From assembly GCA_001830285.1 (NCBI GenBank), contig MHYY01000061.1, forward strand, positions 1 to 35,476: 35,476 bases of DNA. The letters are read 5' to 3'. A program made the position numbers and the translations under genes. This DNA is from Planctomycetes bacterium RIFCSPLOWO2_12_38_17 (lineage in GTDB: Bacteria; Planctomycetota; Brocadiia; Brocadiales; Brocadiaceae). Under the pieces are notes generated by a model. The model saw only the letters and a program-made list of their open reading frames with translations. It was not told the origin of the DNA and ran no database searches. Each line of letters begins with the position of its first letter. The stretch's first letter is position 1. Of the stretch, positions 14,927-35,121 are shown in pieces.

Positions 14927-15241
14927 ATGGTGCACTATACCTGTGATATGTGCGGAAGACAATTGCTGGAAGACGAGGATATTCGATATGTGGTAAAAAT
15001 AGAGGTTTATACTGCATGCGATGCTATGGAAGAAGTGGACGATGATGATTTGGACGAAGATGTGCATGGTTCGTCAGAAGAAAATGAGTCCGGGAATTGC
15101 GACGAGAGACATCCTGAAATGTTTGATGACGAAGACTATAAGGCATTTCGGTTCGATTTATGCACCAAGTGTCACGAGAAGTATCTGCAAGACCCATTAT
15201 TTTTAAAATCATGGAATCGCCTACATTTTTCTGAAAATTAA
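14927..15241 (+). CDS. Small acidic Cys-rich protein, probable zinc ribbon
   Basis: A 104-residue soluble protein with two Cys pairs at opposite ends: CDMCGR near residue 6 and CTKCHEKY near residue 78. They bracket a strongly acidic middle (EEVDDDDLDEDVH). The paired Cys knuckles suggest one structural zinc site. The second pair also reads CXXCH, but the protein has no export signal, so heme attachment is unlikely. A strong GGAGGG ribosome site precedes the start. I do not recognise a function; planctomycete genomes contain similar small proteins. Confidence 0.75.
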   Translation: MVHYTCDMCGRQLLEDEDIRYVVKIEVYTACDAMEEVDDDDLDEDVHGSSEENESGNCDERHPEMFDDEDYKAFRFDLCTKCHEKYLQDPLFLKSWNRLHFSEN

Positions 15242-33192: not shown

Positions 33193-35121
33193 ATGTATCC
33201 TTACCGTTTTAAAATTATTATAATCGTATTCATTCTGCTTTTTTTTGGCATTATTGCCAGATTGTTTCAACTCCAGATTATTGAGAGTGACAAGTACAAG
33301 GGCATATCTGAAAAGCGACGGATAACAACATATTCACTCGAAGCTGCACGAGGTTCTATTTTTGATAGAAATGGGAAAGTACTTGCTGTGGACCGTCATA
33401 CCTTTGATATATCTGTCCAGTACAAAAGTTTACTATACTGCTATGTTACTAGAACCAATAATCTTATTCCACGCATTGCAGGGTTGGAGGCACATAAAAA
33501 AACAAAAAAGGCCTGTTCCGAATGTCATGAAAATTATGATATATGGCTTGGAAGACTGTCGCAGTTATTAGAAATTCCAGAGACTGAATTATTAGATATT
33601 GTAGTACAGGCTGTTAAAAAAGTGGAAAAACTCAAGCAAAATGTAGAAAAACGTGCTGGTAAATCCACACGTATTAAGGAGGAGACCGACTATTATCCGA
33701 TTGTTTTTGATGCAGTATGGGAAAAAGTAATTCAAATCGAAATTCAACAGCGCGAATATCCAGGCGTTCGTGTTACTCCAAGGTCGAAAAGGATTTATCC
33801 AGAACAGAAATTAGCCTCTCATATTATTGGGTATGTAAGTAAATTAACAGAAGATGAATTAAAAGTGTATGATGACAATTGGAAAAATTACACCTTGCTT
33901 TCCAGTAATACAGGTAGTGAAACTACTTCGTTACTATATGAGGGCTATACCGAAAATGATTATGTCGGCAGGACTGGAGTTGAATTTCAGTATGAAACGG
34001 AATTGCGGGGACTGAAAGGTAAGAGATTTGAGGAAATTTCATGTAAAAAAGCCCAGACTGAAAAAACGATACTGGAAAGACCTCCCGCCGCAGGAAATAA
34101 CCTTTATCTTACGCTGGATAGCAGGATTCAACATTACGCCGAAAAATCACTTGGTACAAACAACGGGGCTGTGGTTGTTATGGACCCATGGACTGGAGAA
34201 ATGCTCGCCATGGCAAGCAATCCACGTTTTAATCCCAATACAATTAATGAAGATTTTGATAAACTTATTAAAAATACATATAAACCATTCTTGAACAGGG
34301 CTACACAGAGTGCGTTACCGCCCGGTTCTATTTTCAAAGTTATTACCGCAACTGCCGCTCTTAGTACAGGTCGGATAAGTGCATGGACAAATTTTGATTG
34401 TCGTGGGTACGTCAGTCTTAAGGATATAACATTCAGGTGCTGGACGAATTATGGACACGGTATGATTTCTATAGAAGATGCTATTCCATATTCATGCAAT
34501 GTGTTCTTTCTTGAAACTGGGAAGGCGCTGGGTGGAGAGCTTTTATATGCGTGGTCAAAGAAGTTTGGCATAGGCGAAAAGTCAGGCATTGACCTTCCAT
34601 ATGAAAAAGGCGGGGATATACCTAAAATTACCTCTGTAGCGGAAGTCATGAATATGGCAATTGGACAGGGTGCATTGCTTGCAACACCGCTTCAGTTGGT
34701 CAGATTATATGCTGTAATTGCAAATGGCGGCACCCTGGTTCAACCACACTTATTGCTTAAAATCGCAGACAGTAATGGTAAGGTAATTCGTACGTTTAAA
34801 TCGGAGAGTAATCAAAAAATGCCGATACAGCCTGCCGTTCTCGATATCCTGAGGCAGTCGTTACAGGATGCAGTTACACGCGGCACTGCCAGGGATAAAG
34901 GATTGGCTATTTACAATGTTGCCGGCAAGACAGGCACGGCTGAAACAGGAAGGCAGAAGGACAATCATGCCTGGTTTGTTGGTTATGCCCCATACGATGA
35001 ACCAAAGTACTGTTTTGTCATCCTTGTAGAGCATACGCCTGAACATGCCTCAGATATTGCATGTCCCATTGCAGAAGAGCTTTTATCTTATTTGTTTCCA
35101 GAGATGGATGGAGCAACGTAA
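33193..35121 (+). CDS. mrdA: Penicillin-binding protein 2 (elongation transpeptidase) with a CXXCH insertion
   Basis: A 642-residue class B PBP. One N-terminal membrane anchor (residues about 7-27) is followed by the pedestal with AARGSIFDRNGKVLA. The catalytic motifs are SIFK (S379, K382), SCN (S434, N436) and KTG (579-581). It cross-links peptidoglycan during elongation. Odd point: between residues about 80 and 165 an extra charged region contains CSECH (C108, C111, H112, bases 33514-33528), a c-type heme attachment pattern on the periplasmic side of the anchor. A zinc knuckle is the alternative. Another Cys/His group near the active site (C403, C416, H422, C435) recalls the zinc site described in some PBP2 proteins. 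No rodA gene follows, unlike the common operon. The stop at 35119-35121 is followed by repeat-rich sequence. Confidence 0.93.
   Translation: MYPYRFKIIIIVFILLFFGIIARLFQLQIIESDKYKGISEKRRITTYSLEAARGSIFDRNGKVLAVDRHTFDISVQYKSLLYCYVTRTNNLIPRIAGLEAHKKTKKACSECHENYDIWLGRLSQLLEIPETELLDIVVQAVKKVEKLKQNVEKRAGKSTRIKEETDYYPIVFDAVWEKVIQIEIQQREYPGVRVTPRSKRIYPEQKLASHIIGYVSKLTEDELKVYDDNWKNYTLLSSNTGSETTSLLYEGYTENDYVGRTGVEFQYETELRGLKGKRFEEISCKKAQTEKTILERPPAAGNNLYLTLDSRIQHYAEKSLGTNNGAVVVMDPWTGEMLAMASNPRFNPNTINEDFDKLIKNTYKPFLNRATQSALPPGSIFKVITATAALSTGRISAWTNFDCRGYVSLKDITFRCWTNYGHGMISIEDAIPYSCNVFFLETGKALGGELLYAWSKKFGIGEKSGIDLPYEKGGDIPKITSVAEVMNMAIGQGALLATPLQLVRLYAVIANGGTLVQPHLLLKIADSNGKVIRTFKSESNQKMPIQPAVLDILRQSLQDAVTRGTARDKGLAIYNVAGKTGTAETGRQKDNHAWFVGYAPYDEPKYCFVILVEHTPEHASDIACPIAEELLSYLFPEMDGAT

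Follow-up and report, generated by a model that had tools for sequence, protein, structure and literature searches.

A probable heme c attachment site in an order-wide insert of the cell-wall transpeptidase PBP2 of Brocadiales

Can an enzyme of bacterial wall synthesis carry a covalently bound heme? The question is raised by the last gene of the window (the whole 35,476-nucleotide stretch of DNA analysed here, from a Brocadiaceae genome), which closes an mreB-mreC-mreD-mrdA cluster and encodes a PBP2 with a CXXCH motif in its head subdomain. PBP2 is at the core of bacterial wall growth and is targeted by beta-lactams. The gene product passes the TIGR03423 equivalog model over its full length (511.9 bits, cut-off 455) and matches both PF00905 and PF03717, and its active-site motifs, S379-K382 (SxxK), S434-C435-N436 (SxN) and K579-T580-G581 (KTG), are invariant or nearly so. 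An AlphaFold model (mean pLDDT 89.2) has the standard pedestal and transpeptidase fold, with a single N-terminal membrane helix at residues 2-30; its top PDB fold matches are PBP2s (E 1e-47 to 1e-40), and the fold search returned PBPs only, the insert described below being, at 34 residues, too small to register. The sequence-only reading had placed CSECH at C108, C111 and H112, outside the inner membrane. Its numbering is right, and the modelled helix supports the location, such that the predicted position of CSECH is on the outer face of the inner membrane.

The same reading took residues 80-165 to be an extra segment, which proved too wide. The insert comprises only about 34 residues (~81-114). 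Three PBP2s from a different family within the class (L071, L073, L074) have a clean gap there and align again over residues 115-165, which rules out the larger extent. The insert is present throughout the order and in one PBP2 from another order of the class (L072), varies in length (it is longer in L060 and L065), and is modelled by AlphaFold with three short helices (93-96, 99-103, 108-111). The head subdomain of H. pylori PBP2 bears a hydrophobic zipper (Leu69, Phe71) that binds MreC (PMC5626683); in a collinear alignment F71 of the window PBP2 corresponds to this Phe71, and the insert starts about ten residues further on. By this alignment the insert adjoins the MreC-binding surface, and it may face MreC itself. 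Coordinates are collected in Table 1.

Table 1. Positions in the window of mrdA and of the features of its product discussed in the text.
Feature	Position	Strand	Basis
mrdA, encoding PBP2/MrdA peptidoglycan D,D-transpeptidase, 642 aa	33193-35121	+	TIGR03423, PF00905, PF03717
Insert, residues ~81-114, start of head subdomain	33433-33534	+	Clean gap in L071, L073, L074
Position 86, Thr in the window PBP2, Cys in family f4	33448-33450	+	16/16 f4 proteins
His101, probable distal ligand of heme (or fourth ligand of zinc)	33493-33495	+	Conserved outside family f4
C108-S-E-C111-H112 (CXXCH), probable heme c attachment site	33514-33528	+	Order-wide conservation, codon changes
Ordinary PBP2 head subdomain, residues about 115-166	33535-33690	+	Aligns with insert-less PBP2s
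Catalytic SxxK, S379-K382	34327-34338	+	Invariant, alignment A1
Probable zinc site in the transpeptidase domain, distinct from the insert: C403, C416, H422, C435	34399-34401, 34438-34440, 34456-34458, 34495-34497	+	All four invariant

To sample relatives we drew on 62 genomes belonging to the order, a further 13 from the rest of the class and a selection spanning the phylum. The comparison PBP2s were the phylum's own, plus PDB PBP2s from beyond it, and the named relative loci belong to Planctomycetota and Candidatus Brocadiaceae. Loss of the motif in close relatives, which the sequence-only reading had held to be fatal to a heme, was seen in a single case. The 60 aligned proteins from the order all retain C108 and C111, and 59 retain H112, while the two residues between the cysteines, 109 and 110, are variable (25% and 68% conservation, against a mean of 56% over 72-165). 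The sole exception is genome G010 (L029), with CRECR (H112R, codon CGT) and both cysteines retained. This only CXXCR genome also has a His at the Y82 position, beside C83, which could be a compensating ligand or chance. The PBP2 gene of G029 (L044) has a frame change close to residue 120 that breaks it in two, which probably reflects an error of assembly; it encodes CGECH, and counting it, both cysteines are present in 61/61 proteins of the order and CXXCH in 60/61.

Codon changes, counted on a tree built without the insert, give the same picture. The C108 codon has switched between TGC and TGT at least 13 times and the C111 codon at least 10 times, neither with any amino-acid change, and of at least six changes at H112 one altered the amino acid, whereas most remaining insert columns have undergone 7-26 changes each (Y77, L80, H101 and W118 are exceptions). 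Given the order-wide conservation, and the synonymous changes at C108 in particular, CXXCH is not a chance motif. Nor is it plausible that the insert is a neutral lineage feature with no cofactor: its variable length and freely varying columns would fit, but this is contradicted by the cysteine codons, which changed at least 13 (C108) and at least 10 (C111) times and always kept the amino acid, and we consider a neutral insert hardly credible.

Beyond the order the motif is rare. L072 (genome G065) carries two CXXCH in its homologous insert (HK...CAQCH...CLECH), and no CXXCH was found in 49 other PBP2s, a few of them partial (another 10 of the class and 39 from other parts of the phylum). In a quick tree L072, which is on a long branch, falls outside the order, with a minimum of two state changes; a single gain with subsequent losses, gain on two occasions, or transfer may each account for this, as all fit the tree. 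The PBP3 of the window genome has no CXXCH, and a survey of the flanks of 13 loci found no further heme proteins among MreC, MreD or other neighbours, save a reverse-strand chance frame in L033.

What the insert resembles was assessed with a profile built from 33 inserts and searched against all PDB sequences (E up to 10). Of 38 matches, 37 were c-type cytochromes or multiheme proteins and one was a ferredoxin, the best being the ammonia-forming nitrite reductase NrfA (8e-5); the query insert alone retrieved NrfA proteins only (0.0015 and 0.49). When the columns were shuffled with CXXCH kept (one shuffle), 13 weak matches remained, with a LIM zinc domain on top (0.21) and the best cytochrome at 1.6. 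The cytochrome likeness thus resides in the flanks, since scrambling them abolishes it. Pfam and NCBIfam matches of the inserts were all sub-threshold and mostly to heme c families, a Pfam scan with the query insert alone gave no matches, and no known cytochrome c domain was detected in the insert above a curated cut-off, so we place the window PBP2 in no cytochrome family. The CXXCH pair of L072 is spaced as in the doubled-CXXCH and c7 families (Pfam E 0.0014-0.0018; TIGR01905 2.1e-4).

The hosts are equipped for heme attachment. Within the order 59 of 62 genomes encode ResB, as does G065; the window genome carries both ResB and CcsA, and in the family whose PBP2s are without the insert (f9) ResB occurs in 2 of 9 genomes. 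Occurrence of ResB mirrors lifestyle; a heme on PBP2 would require it but does not follow from it. Bacterial CcsBA, when purified, works on peptides of 9 and 11 residues and depends on both thiols and on the His of its substrate (PMC8112865); the residues strictly conserved in the PBP2 motif are exactly those that CcsBA requires. Because CcsBA takes such short peptides and these hosts have System II, an exported, reduced CXXCH is expected to receive heme. A caution is that anammox bacteria have System II with two CcsA-CcsB complexes, proposed to be in the anammoxosome membrane rather than the cytoplasmic membrane (PMC4222556), a location that weighs against heme on PBP2.

The sequence-only reading had also argued from the abundance of c-type cytochromes in anammox bacteria. 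This holds for the order, most of which has a match to hydrazine synthase alpha (PF18582), but less surely for the window organism, since no match was found in its genome (G000, 85% complete), nor in G006 or G013. These three may be non-anammox members of the family, or their assemblies incomplete. In two genomes of the class that lie outside the order, the hydrazine synthase alpha model matched 11 times (G064) and 16 times (G065), in frames of ~770-1730 residues that form a large cytochrome-type family.

The main rival to a heme is structural zinc, bound by C108, C111, H112 and a fourth ligand so as to stabilise the inserted loop. Conserved Cys/His partners, which the sequence-only reading had named as evidence for such a site, are indeed present in part: His101 occurs without Cys86 in 44/44 proteins outside family f4, as well as in L072, and Cys86 without His101 in 16/16 proteins of f4. 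This perfect complementarity is a typical zinc-site exchange. From their conservation, H101 or C86 can provide a fourth ligand under either metal reading, and their alternation is equally expected of a zinc site; as a heme ligand, either would likely be the distal one. Since f4 forms one clade in the tree, the exchange represents a single switch and carries limited statistical weight.

It is important to note that this PBP2 probably binds zinc elsewhere. In 52 planctomycete PBP2s, C403, C416, H422 and C435 never vary; they align with D350, D365, H371 and C384 of A. baumannii PBP2, whose zinc site is needed for stability and rod shape (PMC9974482). The site described for beta- and gamma-proteobacteria probably extends to this phylum as Cys3His, with Cys replacing both Asp. 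That PBP2 already has one zinc site, with ligand positions invariant here, counts in favour of zinc at the insert. Also on the side of zinc are weak matches of 10/33 inserts to TIGR04129, a small CxxH/CxxC protein family (best 1.8e-4), and a 104-aa open reading frame at 14927-15241 (+) of the window, with CDMC and CTKCH, an acidic middle and no signal sequence, whose product is probably a cytoplasmic zinc protein; CXXCH alone is therefore no proof of heme.

Against zinc stands first the adjacency of C111 and H112, as a single zinc bound by a neighbouring Cys-His pair is geometrically unusual. L072, moreover, doubles the entire CXXCH, His included; the insert profile retrieves cytochromes, not zinc proteins; CcsBA in the host is expected to load heme onto an exported, reduced CXXCH; and the exchange of H101 for C86 happened only once. 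The H112R of G010, with both cysteines retained, counts against a heme, and G010 likewise lacks one of the four candidate zinc ligands. On balance we regard structural zinc as unlikely. A thiol-disulfide redox switch at C108-C111 is less likely still, and improbable in absolute terms: an invariant CXXC pair in an exported protein would suit it, and disulfides have been proposed to regulate other PBPs (PMC9974482), but it leaves unexplained H112 (59/60), the H101/C86 partner and the doubled CXXCH of L072.

Covalent heme is favoured over zinc by the unusual Cys-His adjacency and by the His that L072 retains in its second CXXCH. The idea of a heme-bearing PBP2, put forward in the sequence-only reading, is the best supported and a likely one, on invariant C, C and H, the two-CXXCH L072, cytochrome-like flanks and a System II host. 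The insert's sequence, position, conservation, taxonomic range and flanks were observed directly, as were the maturation genes; heme attachment and ligation we infer from them. We consider it probable that the head subdomain of this PBP2 carries a c-type heme, covalently attached at the insert, near the MreC-binding surface.

We hypothesize that PBP2 throughout the order of the window genome, whose family includes 'Candidatus Brocadiaceae' genomes, bears a ~34-residue heme-c module where the pedestal head begins. Once the protein is exported, CcsBA, the synthase of System II, would couple heme to C108 and C111, with H112 as proximal ligand and H101 (C86 in family f4) as likely distal ligand. 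E. coli RodA-PBP2 is activated by an opening of PBP2 that MreC binding to the pedestal promotes (PMC10257715). The heme could serve as a structural or redox-dependent switch for pedestal opening and RodA-PBP2 activation; at the head start it might lock or tune PBP2 opening as a structural staple, so that the enzyme is active only when holo, or alternatively sense nitric oxide or the redox state. Any such regulatory role is tentative and, in our estimate, somewhat doubtful. With modest confidence we favour the broader proposal of an order-wide wall synthase with a c-type heme in its pedestal (two in a relative), coupling the elongasome to heme supply or to the periplasmic redox or nitric-oxide state. 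If true, heme in PBP2 would be a new link from respiration or heme biogenesis to cell-wall synthesis, and the proposal yields a structural prediction for the whole order, testable in cultured anammox bacteria. No description of a heme-bearing PBP2 was found in the literature searched, which reached few subscription journals, and a PBP2 with a heme-c insert is probably a new form of a known enzyme family.

With characterized PBP2/MrdA (A. baumannii 7ZG8, E. coli 6G9P, H. pylori 5LP5) the window protein has in common its whole fold, catalytic motifs, mre context and zinc-site positions, and it differs by the additional ~34-residue CXXCH insert at the head start. The A. baumannii zinc site is a precedent for a conserved metal site in PBP2; it lies in the transpeptidase domain, and its counterpart here is separate from the insert (PMC9974482). 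The head subdomain is likewise shared with the H. pylori PBP2-MreC complex, for which neither insert nor CXXCH was reported (PMC5626683). From multiheme cytochromes the insert is distinguished by a single site (two in L072) within an enzyme, and by the absence of a cytochrome domain above cut-off; with NrfA, cytochrome c7 and doubled-CXXCH proteins it shares the CXXCH itself, an upstream HK and similar flanking residues.
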